A DNA stretch of 22,624 nt from a virus. The stretch covers positions 1-22,624 of the IMG/VR virus record IMGVR_UViG_3300046804_002329; one strand, written 5' to 3'. Each line of letters starts with the position of its first letter. Positions within the stretch are counted from its first letter, which is position 1. Below the pieces are notes generated by a model, which saw nothing but the letters and a program-made list of their open reading frames with translations, did not search any database and was not told the origin of the DNA. This document shows, piece after piece, positions 1,718 through 22,624 of this stretch. The translations under genes were made by a program, and so were the position numbers.

Positions 1718-2558
1718 TACACAAAATATAAATTTAGACGATATTGTTACTTTTTTAAATGGTAATGAGTCTATAAATTTAATTAATAATAATATTGAGG
1801 GTGCGATTGCACCAAATGCACAATTTTTTATTCATCCTAAAGAATTTCCAATGTTTGAAATGAATAAAATTAATTTTGACATTAATGATAAAAGTGTTTA
1901 TTATAAATATAATGATAAAGGATTTAGATGTGATAATTTTGATTCTTATGAAAGTAAAAATAAAATTATTTTTGCTGGATGCTCTGAAGGAGAAGGAATA
2001 GGATCAAATATAGAAGAGTCATGGCCATATATTATTTTTAATTATTTAAAAAATAAAAATATAGTTGATAATTTTTATAATTTATCAGTAGATAATTTTG
2101 GTTTTCAAAAAATAATATCAAACTGTTTGGCATATATAGATAATTTTGACTCACCAGATTATATTATTATTTTGTTTCCAGAAATAACTAGACAAATTTC
2201 TTGGAATAAAGATACAAATAGTTTTTATGTTGAATGGAATGATGTTAATCAAATACATATTGAAAAAAATTTAATATCGTTTTTAAATTCTTTTATTAAT
2301 TTTATTACAACTATGCATATTTTTGAAAAATATTGTATTGAAAAAAATATTAAATTGTATTGGAGCATTTGGAGTGAAAAAGAAAATTACATTTTTAAAA
2401 AGTTAGAATGTTTTAAAAATTTTGTTCCATTTGATTATTCTATTTTAAATAACAGCAACTTGTCTAAAAATAAAAGAGATGGTCATCATGGTGCATATTA
2501 TCATAATCTTTGGGCTAATAATATTATTCAACATATAGTTAAAAATCTTGGTGTATAA
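1707..2558 (+). CDS. SGNH/GDSL-like hydrolase family protein
   Basis: A 283-residue protein. G91-C92-S93 follows a hydrophobic strand (KIIFAGCSEG) and matches SGNH block I (GDS, here GCS) with S93 as candidate nucleophile. N126-L-S begins the block II region (YNLSVDNFG), and DYIIILFPEI is a central strand. Near the C-terminus is D258-G-H-H-G followed by YHxxWAN, which provides the candidate catalytic Asp/His. SGNH enzymes remove or transfer acyl groups on glycans, lipids or peptides. A paralogue at 20697-21608 has GCS at the same residue numbers, which supports the start at 1707; an upstream ATG at 1686 is possible. It sits directly before a 2OG oxygenase, a pairing repeated at the other locus. 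No signal peptide is seen. Confidence 0.65.
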   Translation: MIDNTQNINLDDIVTFLNGNESINLINNNIEGAIAPNAQFFIHPKEFPMFEMNKINFDINDKSVYYKYNDKGFRCDNFDSYESKNKIIFAGCSEGEGIGSNIEESWPYIIFNYLKNKNIVDNFYNLSVDNFGFQKIISNCLAYIDNFDSPDYIIILFPEITRQISWNKDTNSFYVEWNDVNQIHIEKNLISFLNSFINFITTMHIFEKYCIEKNIKLYWSIWSEKENYIFKKLECFKNFVPFDYSILNNSNLSKNKRDGHHGAYYHNLWANNIIQHIVKNLGV

Positions 2559-2559
2559 T
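2552..2559 (+). promoter_or_regulatory. -10 box for a leaderless oxygenase transcript
   Basis: TG-TATAAT overlaps the TAA stop of the SGNH gene and ends 6 nt before the ATG at 2566. No Shine-Dalgarno lies between. With initiation 6-7 nt after the box the mRNA would begin at or beside the A of the ATG. The surrounding AAATCTTGGTGTATAATT resembles the 23-bp repeat at 166 and 3238 in degenerate form. Confidence 0.45.
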
Positions 2560-2565
2560 TTAAAT

Positions 2566-3246
2566 ATGAGTGATTTTAATTGGGATGAAAATAAAATAGT
2601 TGTTGTTGAAAATTTTATAGATCAACAAAATGCAGAAAAAATTATTAATTATTGTGAAAACATAATTAATAATATTGATGAGGATAAATCAAATATATGT
2701 CGCTTTACTTTTCCATTTGCTGGAATACAGGATACAAATATTCAAGACATTATTTGTGAATTAGAAAAAAAAGTTTATATTTTTATCATATCAGAATATT
2801 TTTTAGATAATAATATAAAAATTCTTGAAAGAGGATGGCAAAGAGACCTAGAAATAGTAAGGTGGAATTGTTCTTATTTAAATGACCATAGGGATGGATG
2901 GACTGAAAAAAAGGTTGGTCATCCATCTTTGCATAATATAGAATATGATATAAGTGCATTAATATATTTAACAGATGAATATGAAGGTGGAGAATTATTT
3001 TTTGGAGATTTTGATATTACTGTTAAGCCTAAAAAGTTTAGTTTTGTGTTATTTCCATCACACTATTTGCATAGAGTTGAAGAGGTATTTGTAAAAAATA
3101 GTATAGCAAGATATACACTGCCATTTTTTTATACTTTTCGTGTATCAGAATATTCAAAAAACTTTATGTTAAAAGATGATCCAATGTTATATGAATATAA
3201 AGAACAAAGTCTAAACAAATTTTTAATATCGATGTTAAAATCTTAA
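2566..3246 (+). CDS. 2OG-Fe(II) oxygenase, prolyl 4-hydroxylase-like
   Basis: A 226-residue protein with a complete P4H-like signature: H108-R-D110 (NDHRDGW), the strand YDISALIYLTDEYEGGELFF, a distal H169 (YLHRVEE) and the 2-oxoglutarate Arg R182 (IARYTLPFF). It begins with the FxWxENKIVVVENFID opening common to this group. The ATG at 2566 lies 6 nt after a -10 box and has no ribosome binding site, so I prefer it to the ATG at 2548, which lies inside the upstream gene. A C-terminal extension of about 40 residues (MLKDDPMLYEYKEQ) has no recognised role. It follows the SGNH gene. Substrate unknown; residues needed for catalysis are present. Confidence 0.85.
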   Translation: MSDFNWDENKIVVVENFIDQQNAEKIINYCENIINNIDEDKSNICRFTFPFAGIQDTNIQDIICELEKKVYIFIISEYFLDNNIKILERGWQRDLEIVRWNCSYLNDHRDGWTEKKVGHPSLHNIEYDISALIYLTDEYEGGELFFGDFDITVKPKKFSFVLFPSHYLHRVEEVFVKNSIARYTLPFFYTFRVSEYSKNFMLKDDPMLYEYKEQSLNKFLISMLKS

Positions 3247-3879: not shown

Positions 3880-4077
3880 ATGGAATCAAATAAAAGAAGT
3901 GTACAAAAAACTATTAGTTGGCAGTTCGTTCATATAGGTTTTGTATATGGAATCATTTATTTGTTCACTCGTGAATGGGAATATGCTGGTTTGGGTGCCC
4001 TTGCTTACATAGCATGGGAATCAACAGCATATTATATTCATGAAAGAGTCTGGGCAAGGTTTAGTAAGAAAAAATAA
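3880..4077 (+). CDS. DUF2061-like small membrane protein
   Basis: A 65-residue protein starting at the ATG one base after the endolysin stop. It opens with ESNKRSVQKTISWQF, continues through two hydrophobic stretches (VHIGFVYGIIYLF and AGLGALAYIAW), and ends with YYIHERVWARF. This matches the pattern of the DUF2061 family (RSxxKtitWR, then YYxHErvW) found in bacterial small membrane proteins. The function of the family is unknown. Placement right after the endolysin raises the possibility of a role in lysis, for example as a second membrane factor, but this is inference only. Confidence 0.7.
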   Translation: MESNKRSVQKTISWQFVHIGFVYGIIYLFTREWEYAGLGALAYIAWESTAYYIHERVWARFSKKK

Positions 4078-7482: not shown

Positions 7483-7492
7483 TATGAGTTTG

Positions 7493-7500
7493 CTGTATAA
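7493..7500 (+). promoter_or_regulatory. -10-like box upstream of the 7517 oxygenase
   Basis: GCTG-TATAAT lies 16-17 nt before the ATG at 7517, with AGGAGG between them. The TG directly abuts the hexamer rather than being one base away. No -35 is evident. Confidence 0.4.
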
Positions 7501-7516
7501 TGATATAGGAGGAAAA

Positions 7517-8101
7517 ATGATAAAAGATTTATTTATTATTGATGATAATTTTTTAACGCAACAAGAAATAAAAGATATAGAGTTCAACTTATTTAATAAT
7601 ACAACATATTCTTTTTTAGAAGTTGGAGGAGCAAAAACTGATGGAATTCATGGAATTAGTGGTGAAAGTTTTTGTGATGCACCACTTTTTATGAATTTTT
7701 CGATGTCTGAAAATGATAATAATAGTTCTTTTGCTATAGCAAATTTTATATTAAATAAGTTTGTAGAAAAACATAACATAAAAATTAAAGAAATAACTAG
7801 ATCTAGAGCAAATATTAGTTTTACATCAAATGACAGAAGACACACTCCGCCACATATCGATGATAGACAAGATCATTATGTTTTTTTATATTATGTTAAT
7901 GACAGTGATGGAAATACAAACATATATAATGAAAAGTTTGATGGAGTTACAAAAAGAACTGAAAAAGACTTAACTCTTTTTAAATCTATTGAACCAGTTG
8001 CTGGAAGAGGAATGTTGTTTAGTGGACACGTTTTCCATACATGGCAACCACCAGTAAATAATAAAATTAGATGTATTGTCAACATGAATGTTATCCTATA
8101 A
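7517..8101 (+). CDS. 2OG-Fe(II) oxygenase, prolyl 4-hydroxylase-like
   Basis: A 194-residue protein starting at 7517 behind AGGAGG; an ATG at 7484 would put the promoter-like box and the ribosome binding site inside the gene. H113-I-D115 (PPHIDDR) is the iron-binding HxD, H174 (GHVFHTWQPP) the distal His and R185 (NKIRCIVNM) the 2-oxoglutarate Arg. RGMLFSGHVFH is the typical strand before the distal His. It lacks the DGGE strand of the closest paralogues. It stands alone between the small-gene run and the holin. Substrate unknown. Confidence 0.82.
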   Translation: MIKDLFIIDDNFLTQQEIKDIEFNLFNNTTYSFLEVGGAKTDGIHGISGESFCDAPLFMNFSMSENDNNSSFAIANFILNKFVEKHNIKIKEITRSRANISFTSNDRRHTPPHIDDRQDHYVFLYYVNDSDGNTNIYNEKFDGVTKRTEKDLTLFKSIEPVAGRGMLFSGHVFHTWQPPVNNKIRCIVNMNVIL

Positions 8102-8482: not shown

Positions 8483-9178
8483 ATGAATTTTGTTTATGTT
8501 TGTAAAGATGGAGACAATGAAGAATTAAGATATTCTATTAGATCAATAGTTGCAAATTGTAATGTAGAAAATATTTTTGTAGTTGGTAGCAAACCTTCTT
8601 GGTATGCTGGAGAATATATAGAAGTAAAACAAAATTTATCTAAATATAAGAATGTTCATAATAATTTTAAAACAATTTCTAATAGTTATGAAATACCAGA
8701 AAATTTTATATTAATGAATGATGATTTTTTTGTTATGAAACAAACTGAAAATATAACAACTTATTTTGATAGAACATTATTAAACAAAATAGAAAGATAT
8801 GAAAGTATTCTTGGAAGAAATTCTTACATAAATAAAATGAAAACAACACATCAAAAACTTTTATCTATGCAAATTGAATCACCATTAAACTATGAAATAC
8901 ATGTTCCAATGTTAATCAATAAAAATAATTTTAAAAAGATTGTGGGTATGAATCATAATCTTTTATACAGATCTATGTATGGCAATGTGTACAATGTTTT
9001 AGGAAACGAAATGGAAGATGTCAAAGTTTATGATTCAGTAAATATGCAGTCTTTGTCATATCAGTATACATCAAACAAGTACAATTTTCTATCAACTGAG
9101 CCTGGATCATTTATAAAATTAAAAAATGATGGTGTTTTTGATACGCTAAATTTAAAAACTAAATACGAGAAGAATTAA
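8483..9178 (+). CDS. Stealth-like sugar-phosphate transferase
   Basis: A 231-residue protein. The N-terminus (FVYVCKDGDN, NEELRYSIRSI at 12-22, VVGSKPSW) and FILMNDDFFVM (75-85) match the conserved regions of Stealth-family proteins, which are hexose-1-phosphate transferases of capsular polysaccharide synthesis. The NDD pair is the likely metal/donor-binding acidic cluster. It is shorter than bacterial Stealth proteins, so it is a minimal version. GGAGTG precedes the ATG. It ends tail-to-tail with the GT4 gene of the minus strand, sharing 20 bp, and belongs functionally with that glycan operon. Confidence 0.65.
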   Translation: MNFVYVCKDGDNEELRYSIRSIVANCNVENIFVVGSKPSWYAGEYIEVKQNLSKYKNVHNNFKTISNSYEIPENFILMNDDFFVMKQTENITTYFDRTLLNKIERYESILGRNSYINKMKTTHQKLLSMQIESPLNYEIHVPMLINKNNFKKIVGMNHNLLYRSMYGNVYNVLGNEMEDVKVYDSVNMQSLSYQYTSNKYNFLSTEPGSFIKLKNDGVFDTLNLKTKYEKN

Positions 9179-15626: not shown

Positions 15627-15800
15627 TTGAAAAAAGATTATAAAAACAAAGAATGGCTTTACCAAAGATATGTTGTTGATGAAGTTGAACCAGTAGATAT
15701 TGCAAAAGAATTTCAGGTAGATCGTAAAGTAATAATTGCTTGGTTAGACGAATTTAGGATTTATCGTGACTATAAAAGATTTAAAAAACATGGAAAATAA
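15627..15800 (+). CDS. Small helix-turn-helix protein (TTG start)
   Basis: A 57-residue product. No ATG exists at the right place, but a TTG at 15627, two bases after the previous stop and 4-5 nt after AGAGGAA, opens the frame. WLYQRYVVDEVEPVDIAKEFQVDRKVI then WLDEFRI is a standard helix-turn-helix (DIAKEFQVDRKVIIAWL), similar to those found in phage HNH or recombinase partners. It probably binds DNA and may act as a small regulator. It overlaps the oxygenase gene at 15790 by 11 nt. Confidence 0.6.
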   Translation: MKKDYKNKEWLYQRYVVDEVEPVDIAKEFQVDRKVIIAWLDEFRIYRDYKRFKKHGK

Positions 15801-16323
15801 TAAAATTTTTGTTATAGATAATTATATATCTGAAGAAGATACTAAAACATTTGTTAATTTTTTTGATAATAACAATTCATATTCTGAATATAGCACTAAT
15901 TATGGAGCACAAGACTTTATTAATGATAAAAAATTATTTTTACTTTTAAAACAATATGCCAATAAAATAAGTTTTTCTCATAAATCATTAAATGATATAG
16001 ATAAAAATTTATATATTTATGCAGCATTAGGATTTAAATGGAAAGATGGTTGGTCGCAACATCCACATATAGATGCAATTGGTCCAGGAGAATCTATTGA
16101 ATATAGTGCAGTAATTTATTTAAATGATGAATATGATGGTGGAGAAATTGAATTTCCAAATAAAAATTTTATATATAAACCTAAAAAATATTCTGCAATA
16201 TTATTTCCAGGCAAAGGTGATGAATATACACATCAAGTAAACAAAATAATTGGAAGCGATAGATATACTTTATTATTTTTATATACATATGATATAAATA
16301 AAGCAAGTAAAAAATTTTTATAA
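15790..16323 (+). CDS. 2OG-Fe(II) oxygenase, prolyl 4-hydroxylase-like
   Basis: A 177-residue protein with H93-I-D95 (HPHIDAIG), the strand YSAVIYLNDEYDGGEIEF, KPKKYSAILFPG, distal H148 (YTHQVNK) and the 2-oxoglutarate Arg R158 (GSDRYTLLF). It is the closest match to the gene at 201 in length and in the order of strands, so the two look like duplicates. The ATG at 15790 gives the family's short MENNKIFVIDN start; an upstream GTG at 15766 lies inside the HTH gene. The gene ends just before the tRNA cluster, which lies on the opposite strand, with no recognisable terminator between. Confidence 0.87.
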   Translation: MENNKIFVIDNYISEEDTKTFVNFFDNNNSYSEYSTNYGAQDFINDKKLFLLLKQYANKISFSHKSLNDIDKNLYIYAALGFKWKDGWSQHPHIDAIGPGESIEYSAVIYLNDEYDGGEIEFPNKNFIYKPKKYSAILFPGKGDEYTHQVNKIIGSDRYTLLFLYTYDINKASKKFL

Positions 16324-16849: not shown

Positions 16850-17036
16850 TATTATTCCTTGCCTCCACACTTTTTAAAATATTCTTAATATTATTTGAGG
16901 CGGTAGACTTAAATAAAAATGGAAATAGTGAGTGAATAAAGCATGCAATGCAAGAGATTAATAAAATGACTGAAATAGAAATAGCCTCACGCATATGTTT
17001 AAAGTATGTTTCGTTTACATCTTTTAAATGACTCAT
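16842..17036 (-). CDS. DUF6356-like small membrane protein
   Basis: A 64-residue protein. NETYFKHMREAI is followed by a hydrophobic stretch (SISVILLISCIACFIHSLFPFLF) and a STASNNI segment. The pattern ETYxxHxxxA...AClxHxLxPFLFxxTAS is that of DUF6356, a small membrane family of unknown function. It starts in an ATGA overlap with the upstream kinase fusion and overlaps the next gene by 8 nt, so the three form one minus-strand unit. Confidence 0.68.
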   Translation of the reverse strand: MSHLKDVNETYFKHMREAISISVILLISCIACFIHSLFPFLFKSTASNNIKNILKSVEARNNNE

Positions 17037-17791
17037 ATGCCCATCTCTTTTCTTTTTTGTGTTGCAGAAATAGCCTGAATTTCTGGAGGTAGTTCCACCT
17101 GTTCAATTTTATATCCAACATCTCTTCCATAAACTATATTAGTAATATTAGGCAACTTAATTACCATAGCATCTACCATATATGGATCTTGTTCTATATA
17201 ATGCTTAACCTCATTAAATCGTAATGGATCTTTAGGGCTTGTTGCATATGTATTCCTAATTCCAAGCATTACCTGTTTTGTTCTTTTTTCTGCTTCAGAA
17301 TAAAGTGCATGATGTCCTTCATGCCAAGGTTGATACCTCCCAAGCATTAAAGTTGTTGGCTCAGACCAATCATGTATATTAAATAATTTACAAAATTCTT
17401 TAACTCTTAAATTAATGTCATCTGAAAAATATACATATTCAATATCAACATTTATAGGATCTTCCCATAACTTATTTGTATCTTCAAAACGACCTTCTTT
17501 AATTGTGTTCATCCAAACTAAAATATTAGACTTTCCAAATGCATCTCTTGTTTGCTTTGTAGGACATATAAAATCAACAACAACAGTATAACCTTGTCCA
17601 GAAAGCATCCTAGCCATTTCTCCAAGCCTTCTGGCATGCTCAATTCTATCTTCTATTGTAAATCCTAGGTCCGAATTTATAGTTGATCTAACATAATCTG
17701 CATTTAAATGTACTGCATTAATCTTATCTTTTAATTCTGAAGCAAATGTTGTTTTACCTGAGCCTGGCAATCCAATAACTTGAATAATCAT
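17033..17791 (-). CDS. APS kinase-like / nucleotidylyltransferase fusion
   Basis: A 252-residue two-domain protein. Residues 1-140 resemble adenylylsulfate kinase (CysC): Walker A GLPGSGKTT (7-15), LNADYVR (29-35), NSDLGFTIEDR (39-49) and VVVDFICPTKQTRD (70-83). Residues 147-252 form an HIGH-superfamily nucleotidylyltransferase: GRYQPWHEGHH (151-161), YGRDVGY (221-227) and ISATQKR (241-247), closest to NadM/NMNAT-type but also reminiscent of ATP sulfurylase, which shares GRD and ISxT motifs. Together they could phosphorylate and nucleotidylate a small metabolite, or make PAPS for the sulfotransferase at 22293. NAD salvage is another option. SD AGAAAGGA precedes the ATG. Confidence 0.75.
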   Translation of the reverse strand: MIIQVIGLPGSGKTTFASELKDKINAVHLNADYVRSTINSDLGFTIEDRIEHARRLGEMARMLSGQGYTVVVDFICPTKQTRDAFGKSNILVWMNTIKEGRFEDTNKLWEDPINVDIEYVYFSDDINLRVKEFCKLFNIHDWSEPTTLMLGRYQPWHEGHHALYSEAEKRTKQVMLGIRNTYATSPKDPLRFNEVKHYIEQDPYMVDAMVIKLPNITNIVYGRDVGYKIEQVELPPEIQAISATQKRKEMGI

Positions 17792-20716: not shown

Positions 20717-21608
20717 TATTATTAAATCCAATCATTTTGTCATAAAATACATTAGCCCATGTTAGATGATATTTATAGCCATGATGATCATTGTCCTCTG
20801 CAAAATCCCAAAACTCTTCGTTTGTTTTGCTTAATTCAATATTATTTTTTATTTCATTAATATAATTATTATCAATAACTGATTTAATTTTTAAAAAATT
20901 ATAAAATTCATTTGAAGAATTAGACCAAGATAGAACAAAAAGTTTTATATTGTTAACATTACAAAATTTTTGAAAATTAACCAAACTTAGCAAATTATAA
21001 ATTACTACACTTTCAAAATTTTTGTTTTTATAAAAAGTTTTTAATAAAGTATTTATGTTATCAATATATAATGGTTCATGTATTGTTCTAATATGTTTTT
21101 CTCGTTCAAGAGTAAAAAATCTTTCAATTGGTGGAAGCACTAAAAATACATAATCTGGAGTTTTATATTTTTCAATAAACGTATAGCAAGTTGTAATGAT
21201 TCTTTCTGTATCAAGACTAGGTCTTCCCAAATTATATAGTTTTATATTTTTTTTATTTGTTTTTGCAATTTTATCTTTTAAAATATTAGGCCAAATTTTA
21301 TTTTCAGGTAAGGCATATCCAAATGTATTTGAACATCCAGAAGTTAAAATATTAATATTTTCATCATTAAAAACTTCAAAACTTTCTGACCTAAATCCAA
21401 AATTATTTAAACAATAAGAAATGTTGCTTTCATTACTAGTAAAAATTTTTAAGTTATTGAGTAAAACTTCTGTTGGAATAAAATTAATTTTCTTTTTATC
21501 TTTATTAATCATAGTAAAACTTTGTTGGTCTGTTAATAAAAATTCATTCCAATTTGAAACTTGGTTAAAAAATTCAGTAAATGATTCTTTTTGCTTATTC
21601 AGATCCAT
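20697..21608 (-). CDS. SGNH/GDSL-like hydrolase family protein
   Basis: A 303-residue paralogue of the gene at 1707. G91-C92-S93 in ILTSGCSNTFGYA is block I with S93 as candidate nucleophile, N126-L-G in YNLGRPS is block II, and PDYVFLVLPPIERFF the central strand. The C-terminal motif is NDHHG (273-277) followed by YHxxWAN. Here an Asn replaces the Asp found at 258 in the other copy, though D272 and D274 are close by. It starts 14 nt inside the upstream oxygenase gene and leads into the carbamoyltransferase, so the three are coupled. Likely role: removal or transfer of an acyl group on the same glycan or protein target. Confidence 0.65.
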   Translation of the reverse strand: MDLNKQKESFTEFFNQVSNWNEFLLTDQQSFTMINKDKKKINFIPTEVLLNNLKIFTSNESNISYCLNNFGFRSESFEVFNDENINILTSGCSNTFGYALPENKIWPNILKDKIAKTNKKNIKLYNLGRPSLDTERIITTCYTFIEKYKTPDYVFLVLPPIERFFTLEREKHIRTIHEPLYIDNINTLLKTFYKNKNFESVVIYNLLSLVNFQKFCNVNNIKLFVLSWSNSSNEFYNFLKIKSVIDNNYINEIKNNIELSKTNEEFWDFAEDNDHHGYKYHLTWANVFYDKMIGFNNNDNSWY

Positions 21609-22260
21609 CAGAATGAATCTTTTCTACCATATTATGGTACCAATTTGGCAGAGCATATCGTACTCCGCTTTTCATTTCTGCAATTTCATGTGTAAATATA
21701 AAATTAGATGGGAAAAAAATAATGCTACCAGCATCAGGTTTTAAAGTAACGCCAACAGTTTTAAATGATATTTCTCCACCTTCATAATTATCGTTTAAGT
21801 ATAAAATAACTGAAAGTGTTCTACTACTTATTCCGTGATCAGAATGTTCTGGAAGATATCCAGATTTTTCATACTTTAAAATATTCATTTGGTCTTCTTT
21901 TCCTTTGATGCTTCTTCCAGCAAAAGGATATAATGTTTTTGAGTAGTGTTCAAATGCTATGTCTAATGCTTTAAACAACGGGTCGGACATTTTTGCATAC
22001 TCTTCATAGTAATAATCATTTTCTTTTAAATCTGAAGTTCTTACTATTGATTTAATTTTACAAAAATGTTTATCCTCTCCGTGATTCCACTCCCCCCAAG
22101 GATTTAATCTTGTTTGAAAAGATTTTGGTATTTTATTTTTTCTATCTTCTACTACTTTTTTATCTAAAAATTCTATTTGATTAATTATTTCTTGTGGATT
22201 TTCTATTATATTTTTATAATAAATAAGTCCATCTGCAAGTTTTTCATATTCAATATTCAT
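21595..22260 (-). CDS. 2OG-Fe(II) oxygenase, prolyl 4-hydroxylase-like
   Basis: A 221-residue protein from the ATG at 22260 (MNIEYEKL), which lies 6 nt after an extended -10; a longer frame to 22341 would overlap the divergent sulfotransferase gene. H139-S-D141 (PEHSDHG), TLSVILYLNDNYEGGEISF, GSIIFFPSNF, distal H191 (FTHEIAEM) and R201 (SGVRYALPNWY) complete the catalytic set. It is first in the operon with the SGNH and carbamoyltransferase genes. Hydroxyls that it creates could be acceptors for the carbamoyl group, but this is only inferred from operon order. Confidence 0.87.
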   Translation of the reverse strand: MNIEYEKLADGLIYYKNIIENPQEIINQIEFLDKKVVEDRKNKIPKSFQTRLNPWGEWNHGEDKHFCKIKSIVRTSDLKENDYYYEEYAKMSDPLFKALDIAFEHYSKTLYPFAGRSIKGKEDQMNILKYEKSGYLPEHSDHGISSRTLSVILYLNDNYEGGEISFKTVGVTLKPDAGSIIFFPSNFIFTHEIAEMKSGVRYALPNWYHNMVEKIHSDGSE

Positions 22261-22266
22261 ATTTTT

Positions 22267-22286
22267 ATTATACCATATGGTAGTAT
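22267..22286. promoter_or_regulatory. Divergent overlapping leaderless promoters
   Basis: The palindrome ATACCATATGGTAT (22270-22283) joins two extended -10 boxes. On the minus strand TG-G-TATAAT has its hexamer at 22272-22267, 6 nt before the ATG at 22260. On the plus strand TG-G-TAGTAT has its hexamer at 22281-22286, 6 nt before the ATG at 22293. The palindrome may also be a binding site for a dimeric regulator. Confidence 0.55.
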
Positions 22287-22292
22287 ATGTAT

Positions 22293-22624
22293 ATGAAAAC
22301 ATTTTTATTATGTCCTGGAACCCAAAGATCTGGCACAACATGGTTATATAAAAATTTATTATTAAATAAAAATGTAAATTTTGGAGATGTAAAAGAATAT
22401 CATTATTTTGATTCTTTAAATATAGATTGTTTTTTTAAATATAAAAAAATAAATCAAAAACATGATACATTGTCTACTTTTTATAATGATAAAAATATGT
22501 ATTTTGAATATTTTATTAACATTTTAAATAAATATGATTTAACTGGAGACATATCTCCAGGTTATTCTTCATTAAATGATGATATTTTTATAAATATAAA
22601 AAATATGTTTAACTCATTTAATAT
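22293..22624 (+). CDS. Sulfotransferase, N-terminal part
   Basis: The first 110 residues of a gene that runs off the window. CPGTQRSGTTWLYKNL (7-22) is the 5'-phosphosulfate-binding loop of PAPS-dependent sulfotransferases, KEYHYFD (34-40) matches the segment after strand 2, and DISPGYS (86-92) the strand near the 3'-phosphate site. The enzyme would transfer sulfate from PAPS to a hydroxyl or amine of a glycan or protein. The ATG lies 6 nt after an extended -10 box with no ribosome binding site. The APS-kinase-like protein at 17033 could supply the donor. Confidence 0.85.
   Translation, partial: MKTFLLCPGTQRSGTTWLYKNLLLNKNVNFGDVKEYHYFDSLNIDCFFKYKKINQKHDTLSTFYNDKNMYFEYFINILNKYDLTGDISPGYSSLNDDIFINIKNMFNSFN

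Follow-up and report, generated by a model that had tools for sequence, protein, structure and literature searches.

A phage-encoded fusion of an APS-kinase-like domain and a minimal HIGH-type nucleotidylyltransferase as a probable compact PAPS synthase, with bacterial relatives in sulfur operons

Why would a phage carry, in a single short protein, a domain resembling APS kinase and a second domain with the HIGH motif of nucleotidylyltransferases? The gene in question lies in the window, i.e., the whole stretch of viral DNA analysed here (22,624 nucleotides). A first-pass annotation had proposed such a fusion at 17033..17791. It is real and encodes 252 amino acids, but it is read from the minus strand, as are all its parts described below; the plus strand of the same interval is full of stops and contains no ORF. 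The ORF is flanked by tRNA-Arg and tRNA-Met on one side and by tRNA-Glu, tRNA-Gly, and tRNA-Asn on the other. Comparison with Pfam, PHROG, and NCBIfam together with AlphaFold2 modelling divided it into an APS-kinase-like domain (residues 1-139, 17375..17791) and a minimal HIGH nucleotidylyltransferase (NT) domain (residues 140-252, 17036..17374), the latter also recognizable from stand-alone homologues. The best PHROG match was phrog_10255 ("kinase"), covering the whole length (3.7e-66). The fusion goes beyond chance, as the active-site motifs of both domains are kept in 52 representatives sharing <80% identity and the model is confident (pLDDT 92.6, pTM 0.84). We propose, with a probability of about 0.83, that the product of the gene is a compact PAPS synthase of roughly 28 kDa that combines two activities. 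The C-terminal NT, a NadM-derived HIGH-type adenylyltransferase, would act as the ATP sulfurylase (sulfate + ATP = APS + PPi, reversible), and the N-terminal lid-less APS-kinase domain would then phosphorylate the 3'-OH of APS to yield PAPS. These functions were assigned to the NT and the kinase because of the context of their bacterial relatives.

The kinase half was well placed by sequence and structure. Pfam APS_kinase matched residues 2-84 with 61.4 bits, above its gathering cut-off of 21.1, and was preferred over AAA_28, the ribosylnicotinamide kinase domain of NadR (16.7 vs 27). The NCBIfam apsK equivalog cut-off was missed widely (61.5 vs 138.7 bits). Across all 52 representatives, G7, G12, and K13 of the P-loop GLPGSGKT (residues 7-14, 17750..17773) are invariant, as are F74, P77, T105, and P112. 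The same holds for D32, R35, F44, and R49, which align with CysC; from the Penicillium enzyme, we take D32 to be the catalytic Asp and the other three to be APS-binding. In alignment with canonical CysC, FEDTNK sits on FTGIDS, so the second aromatic is retained, and the DPKGLYKKARKG lid is deleted in all four kinase sequences aligned with two canonical CysC domains. Structure prediction bore out the kinase assignment: the 46 best Foldseek matches in the PDB were all APS kinases or bifunctional forms, many of them APS complexes, and VIA-align gave Z 17.8 and 2.0 A over 138 residues against the A. fulgidus APS kinase, compared with Z 15.1 for the best gluconate kinase. A grouping with NadR and a loss of APS-binding residues had been named at first pass as signs against an APS-linked role. 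Neither was seen, as the kinase can be aligned to APS kinases and the residues taken to bind APS are retained; the grouping of both kinase and NT rests on profile scores and folds. Two aprA-linked kinases (L334:3611-4105 and L341:5614-6105) carry approximately 27 extra residues before the FENTN-type motif, which are absent elsewhere in the alignment.

In the NT domain, the two motifs singled out initially, GRYQPWHEGH and ISATQ, are both present. The former is the HIGH motif (residues 151-160, 17312..17341), while the latter is part of ISATQKR (residues 241-247, 17051..17071), corresponding to the nucleotidylyltransferase (S)xTxxR motif, given for Sat as SGTxxR in the available text of PMC3779200. 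Invariant in this half across the 52 representatives are G151, R152, Q154, P155, H157, G159, H160, R179, G222, R223, V225, G226, Y227, A243, T244, and R247, all of which, together with S242, also recur in 59/59 NT sequences, so that HxGH and SATxxR are universal in the set. R179 (17255..17257) follows the second strand of the domain and is specific to the NT family, being replaced by Gly in the aligned NMN adenylyltransferases. YGRDVGY (residues 221-227, 17111..17131) is similar to the ATP sulfurylase GRD loop, which according to the same available text reads GRD followed by His-Ala and binds ribose and sulfate; residue 224 is D in 40 and G in 17 of the 59 NT sequences. Given the invariant residues in both halves of the protein, the kinase and NT sites both look catalytically alive as judged from their sequences.

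Family tests placed the NT close to, and outside of, known enzymes. In its first half, the sequence is close to NadM (E 3e-9 against a Francisella NadM), and its second half is shorter than that of NadM and bears the GR(D/G)VGY motif. NMN adenylyltransferases are its closest sequence relatives. The earlier description of the second domain as NadM-like thus holds for its derivation by sequence and fails for membership, as the domain stays far under every NadM and NadR cut-off (TIGR01527, 16.1 vs 181.2; PRK01153, 21.9 vs 127 bits; NadM-Nudix of NCBIfam likewise missed widely). CTP_transf_like was matched from residue 149 onwards slightly short of its cut-off (19.4 vs 21), and it was matched by 59/59 family members scanned. 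The sulfate-binding RNP motif of Sat, QxRN(P) in the available text of PMC3779200, is absent from 59/59 NT sequences, which have GR(Y/W/F)QP instead. PF01747 did not match the window NT at E<=0.1; it matched 6/59 NT sequences weakly (best E 0.01), and for the NT of the SAR11 locus L339 it gave E 0.0052, below the cut-off (16.7 vs 24.3 bits). The NT was not classed as Sat, NadM, or NadR because the defining features of these enzymes were tested for and not found. As the PDB fold search with the whole model was filled with kinase matches, the NT domain was predicted alone (pLDDT 92.9). Its fold is that of NMN and phosphopantetheine adenylyltransferases (NMNAT/PPAT, Z about 9-10), with glycerol-3-phosphate cytidylyltransferase also matched (Z 9.1); Sat was not among the matches listed, and those listed name no substrate. 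The proximity to NMN adenylyltransferases, the absence of the Sat RNP motif, and the kinase score far under the apsK cut-off all count against a PAPS synthase.

These similarities bear most directly on a NadR-like NAD salvage enzyme, in which the kinase would phosphorylate nicotinamide riboside and the NT would turn NMN into NAD, perhaps against NAD-depleting defences. The nearness of the NT to NadM and its GRFQP-type motifs agree with this explanation. A survey of NAD genes in phages (PMC9503650) describes NadV, NadM, and NadR, and the fusion does not figure in its available text. A NADAR-annotated gene directly before the kinase-NT gene in the Casjensviridae phage Bhz60 (L083:7553-7996) would suit NAD or ADP-ribose metabolism. 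However, the NadM and NadR cut-offs are widely missed, the kinase is APS-kinase-like rather than like the NadR kinase, and the domain order is the reverse of that in NadR. Moreover, from the PNI to the GRD motif the NT has approximately 25 residues fewer than MJ0541, a stretch in which we take the NMN-stacking Trp of MJ0541 to lie, and the bacterial contexts concern sulfur, not NAD. For these reasons of score, domain order, and context, NAD salvage was not taken as the main explanation, and we regard it as very improbable.

For the proposed PAPS synthase, the bacterial relatives were the most informative. One scan of bacterial genome contigs yielded 226 relatives, and 80 of them were analysed: 64 loci have split ORFs, 8 are fused, 4 have the kinase only, and 4 were not classed. 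In SAR11 and SAR86 bacteria, the two halves are usually separate adjacent genes, the NT occurring as stand-alone homologues of 118-135 amino acids. Most of the bacterial loci are from SAR11, where the pair lies beside genes for an aminomethyltransferase (GCV_T, which we take to be DmdA-like), an enoyl-CoA hydratase-like protein, and SBP56 (13 loci); names in this region other than GCV_T and SBP56 are our reading of the sequence. The majority of SAR11 pairs are found in a glycine-betaine/DMSP region, not beside Apr, which counts against the PAPS synthase. At four SAR11 loci (L264, L281, L301, and L306), one or two ORFs of ~600-780 amino acids, cell-surface proteins by their look, stand between the kinase and NT genes. 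One SAR11-order genome has kinase and NT in one 289-aa frame (G191:C2:161401-162153), a chromosomal fusion like that of the phage.

A different arrangement was found at locus L258, with genes in the order CbiX family, tetrapyrrole methylase, nitrite/sulfite reductase, PAPS_reduct (CysH), DUF2061, kinase, and NT. With its sulfite reductase and siroheme genes, this is a sulfate-reduction operon. Within the order to which L258 belongs, the NT is present in 5/6 genomes, and all five have the succession CysH-DUF2061-kinase-NT. A single strong PAPS_reduct match, that of CysH, was obtained in each, and hence no CysD was seen in them; canonical Sat was found in 1/5 (G103), on another contig. The kinase-NT pair stands in the cysH operon where an ATP sulfurylase and an APS kinase are needed, and there it would supply APS/PAPS to CysH. 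In a search covering 49 of the 50 cellular loci (all but L274), canonical Sat was found in 1/49 genomes of loci with the pair or part of it, the SAR11 genome G071. The presence of Sat in G103 and G071 counts against the PAPS synthase.

SAR11 provided a second, independent context. According to the available text of PMC5069961, these bacteria possess aprBA and lack cysDNCHIJ and sat, AprBA being proposed to detoxify sulfite and the fate of APS being left unexplained; aprAB are described as core genes under strong purifying selection in the available text of PMC12636525. In the table of PMC5069961, as far as it is readable, the five strains with aprA are also those with a cysC orthologue. This fits the kinase-NT pair found here, and the cysC listed there may or may not be this kinase. 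Among 117 SAR11-order genomes, the NT was detected in 84 and AprA in 86, with 79 having both, 26 neither, 5 only the NT, and 7 only AprA (12 discordant); Fisher p was 6.7e-15, a value that, like the other Fisher p value for SAR11 below, overstates independence, since the genomes are related to one another and not all complete. In 36/84 NT-positive genomes, AprA and the NT are no more than 1.5 kb apart, in two arrangements: convergent in 32 genomes (~375 bp apart in nearly all) and on the same strand in 4 (~1.4 kb apart). In three of the latter (L337, L338, and L339), a 126-aa NT without the kinase precedes genes for a QmoC-like membrane protein (aprM-like), AprB, AprA, a 116-aa ORF, and TauE; the family names were tested on L339 only, and the fourth genome has the same geometry. 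A search of all four genomes for a kinase of this family gave none. In Allochromatium vinosum, sat is co-transcribed with aprMBA and holds the same place as the SAR11 NT (PMC3779200, available text). The kinase can thus be spared at just those loci that require no reaction other than APS + PPi = ATP + sulfate, and the SAR11 NT without kinase would run backwards behind AprBA, converting APS and PPi into ATP and sulfate during sulfite oxidation. The 116-aa ORF is conserved beside aprA and the NT in SAR11 (L339:9200-9550, L334:4498-4848, and L341:6493-6843). As the L339 copy matched no Pfam or NCBIfam family, it may be a new partner of sulfite oxidation.

The linkage to AprBA would suit equally well an ADP sulfurylase-like or other transferase acting on APS (APS + Pi = ADP + sulfate) or one that adenylylates another small oxyanion, with the kinase still being an APS kinase. 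A tight pocket, suggested by the shortness of the loop and by the invariance of R179 and R223, is also in line with such an enzyme. Nevertheless, the CysH-DUF2061-kinase-NT operon requires APS to be made from sulfate, which ADP sulfurylase does poorly, and enzymes of the HIGH type use ATP/PPi chemistry; we therefore consider this alternative very unlikely. An ATP sulfurylase paired with an APS kinase was further supported by the genomes in which the pair is replaced. A strong kinase match was present in 75/117 SAR11 genomes, all NT-positive, and in 69/75 the kinase and NT genes are adjacent (<300 bp, same strand). Eight SAR11 genomes have only weak kinase matches, inside ORFs of 590-639 amino acids (CysNC length). 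CysNC was identified in two of the eight, beside a 490-aa ORF carrying CysD, and L343, L344, and L345 show the same two-ORF CysNC/CysD layout by inspection. CysNC-length ORFs were found in 0/84 NT-positive vs 8/33 NT-negative SAR11 genomes (p 2e-5). The initial suggestion that activated sulfate is made by a compact enzyme resembling PAPS synthetase is thus largely supported: bacterial versions occur with cysH and with aprBA and were not found in the genomes with a CysNC-like ORF. That the NT is tied to APS metabolism is well supported by these independent contexts. SAR11 also has other, more CysC-like kinases below the apsK equivalog cut-off, located beside surface-polysaccharide-type genes (L346:284-778 and L347:1918-2418).

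Relatives are numerous in phages. A protein search returned nine phage records, five of them with near-full coverage at 37-41% identity (Stenotrophomonas phages DLP_6, Suzuki, and Bhz60, Clavibacter phage 33, and Xanthomonas phage AhaSv). In IMG/VR, three queries found at least 596, at least 139, and at least 598 relatives, of which 80 per query were kept. Neighbouring genes were counted in 96 loci, comprising the window and 95 representatives with <92% identity, out of 246 loci including that of the window. Kinase-only phage genes were also observed (L162-L167), and two relatives have unnamed genes of the same length at the position of the NADAR gene of phage Bhz60. Upstream of one intact gene lies a second, degenerate relative (L033:3-686), in which GKFQPWTKEDF replaces the HIGH motif and the start of the kinase is lost; its sequence suggests an inactive paralogue. 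A DUF2061 gene lies downstream on the same strand within 300 bp in 37/96 phage loci, and this neighbour is shared with the bacterial cysH operon, where it is located between cysH and the kinase. In the window, a DUF2061 membrane protein is encoded at 3880..4077 on the plus strand (PF09834, 2.8e-11 on 3886-4074; start codon read from the ORF), ~13 kb from the kinase-NT gene, and we infer that it is tied to the kinase-NT system.

A profile built from five bacterial CysH sequences had no match in viral ORFs within 6.5 kb of the phage gene. The PAPS made by the phage enzyme would most likely be consumed by sulfotransferases or by other PAPS-dependent enzymes with glycans or host molecules as targets. 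The window had been said to hold a sulfotransferase, which was contradicted by Pfam scans of 26 ORFs with E limits of 1, 0.001, 0.01, and 0.01, where 0/26 matched a sulfotransferase family. On the side of the phage relatives, 50 viral records were searched out of longer lists (88, then 80), and repeated rows for one place were dropped before counting. A sulfotransferase match (three families, E<=0.01) was present in 27/50 records. In 11 records it lay within 2.5 kb of the phage gene, vs 3.7 expected by random placement (p 5e-4); at the stricter E<=1e-5, there were 5 vs 2.2 expected (p 0.05). As the enrichment was seen at the lenient threshold only, it is suggestive, not decisive.

A third explanation follows the activation of a sugar or polyol phosphate raised at first pass: kinase and nucleotidylyltransferase would together yield an NDP-sugar or NDP-alditol, to be used in glycans of the phage or of a surface. 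Glycosyltransferases and sugar enzymes are abundant in the window and at several other loci, and glycerol-3-phosphate cytidylyltransferase is among the folds matched by the NT. We retained sugar activation only as a rival, and an extremely unlikely one, since it leaves unexplained the cysH and aprBA linkage, the invariant APS-kinase residues, and the NT without kinase before aprMBA. Besides its glycosyltransferases, the window encodes an FkbM methyltransferase, a carbamoyltransferase, and a Stealth_CR2-like protein (8483-9178, below cut-off) that belongs to phrog_7999, where no function is assigned. At least five 2OG-Fe(II) oxygenase-like genes are found within its 22.6 kb (201-740, 2548-3246, 7484-8101, 15766-16323, and 21595-22341), one of them below the family cut-off. 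A WhiB-family gene was detected with Pfam; WhiB is actinobacterial in distribution, which suggests an actinobacterial host for the window phage.

Returning to the PAPS synthase, we consider it likely that the NT adds to Sat and CysDN a third class of ATP sulfurylase, non-orthologous to both and built on an NMN-adenylyltransferase scaffold of approximately 115-130 residues, that it is the missing sulfurylase completing AprBA-dependent sulfite oxidation in SAR11 with a gain of ATP, and that when fused to the lid-less APS kinase it forms the smallest PAPS synthase, widespread in phages; we know of no smaller one. If true, sulfate activation evolved once more from another enzyme scaffold, sulfite oxidation in SAR11 may yield ATP, and phages carry a one-gene route to PAPS. 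The NT, found in 84/117 SAR11-order genomes, is a direct candidate for the missing APS step of these bacteria. In the available text of open-licence PMC literature, this enzyme was nowhere seen to be described as an ATP sulfurylase. In the same kind of sources, again as far as their text was available, many virome studies report cysC among the auxiliary genes of viruses. As the phage protein scores above the Pfam APS_kinase cut-off, such calls may need rereading, and some virome cysC genes may encode the fusion enzyme and not belong to sulfate assimilation.

The candidate enzyme can finally be compared with known systems. With APS kinase (CysC, PF01583), the phage kinase has in common the fold, the P-loop, the D/R/F/R positions, and the aromatic at the FTGID position; it differs in having no lid, in the change from FISP to F(I/V)CP in most members, and in scoring far below the apsK equivalog cut-off. 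PHROG 10255 covers the whole length of the protein, but its name refers to the kinase only and gives no substrate. NadM, NadM-Nudix, and NadR have the N-terminal half of the NT in common (GRFQPxHxGH and NPF), whereas the C-terminal half of the NT is rewritten, its scores fall far below their cut-offs, and its partners are others. In NadR, the NMN adenylyltransferase comes first and is followed by the kinase, the reverse of the phage fusion. CysDN and CysDNC catalyse the reaction that is proposed for the NT, with a fold and mechanism unrelated to it (PP-loop plus GTPase), and a CysNC-length ORF and the NT were not found together in any of the 117 SAR11 genomes. Sat/MET3 (PF01747) belongs with the NT to the HIGH superfamily and is similar to it in HxxH, a GRD-like loop, and (S)xTxxR, as well as in the operon place before aprMBA. 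However, Sat/MET3 has roughly 400 amino acids and the NT ~115-130, without QxRNP and with a PF01747 match that is weak at best. A parallel in architecture is the animal PAPS synthase (PAPSS1/2), with an N-terminal APS kinase and a C-terminal ATP sulfurylase, i.e., the same domain order and the same proposed reactions. VIA-align with human PAPS synthase 1 (1x6v) covers model residues 1-252, but a different domain arrangement raises the deviation to 17 A. PAPSS1/2 exceed 600 amino acids, whereas the phage protein has 252, its kinase lacks the lid, and its NT lies outside the ATP-sulfurylase family by the Pfam cut-off and carries no RNP motif.
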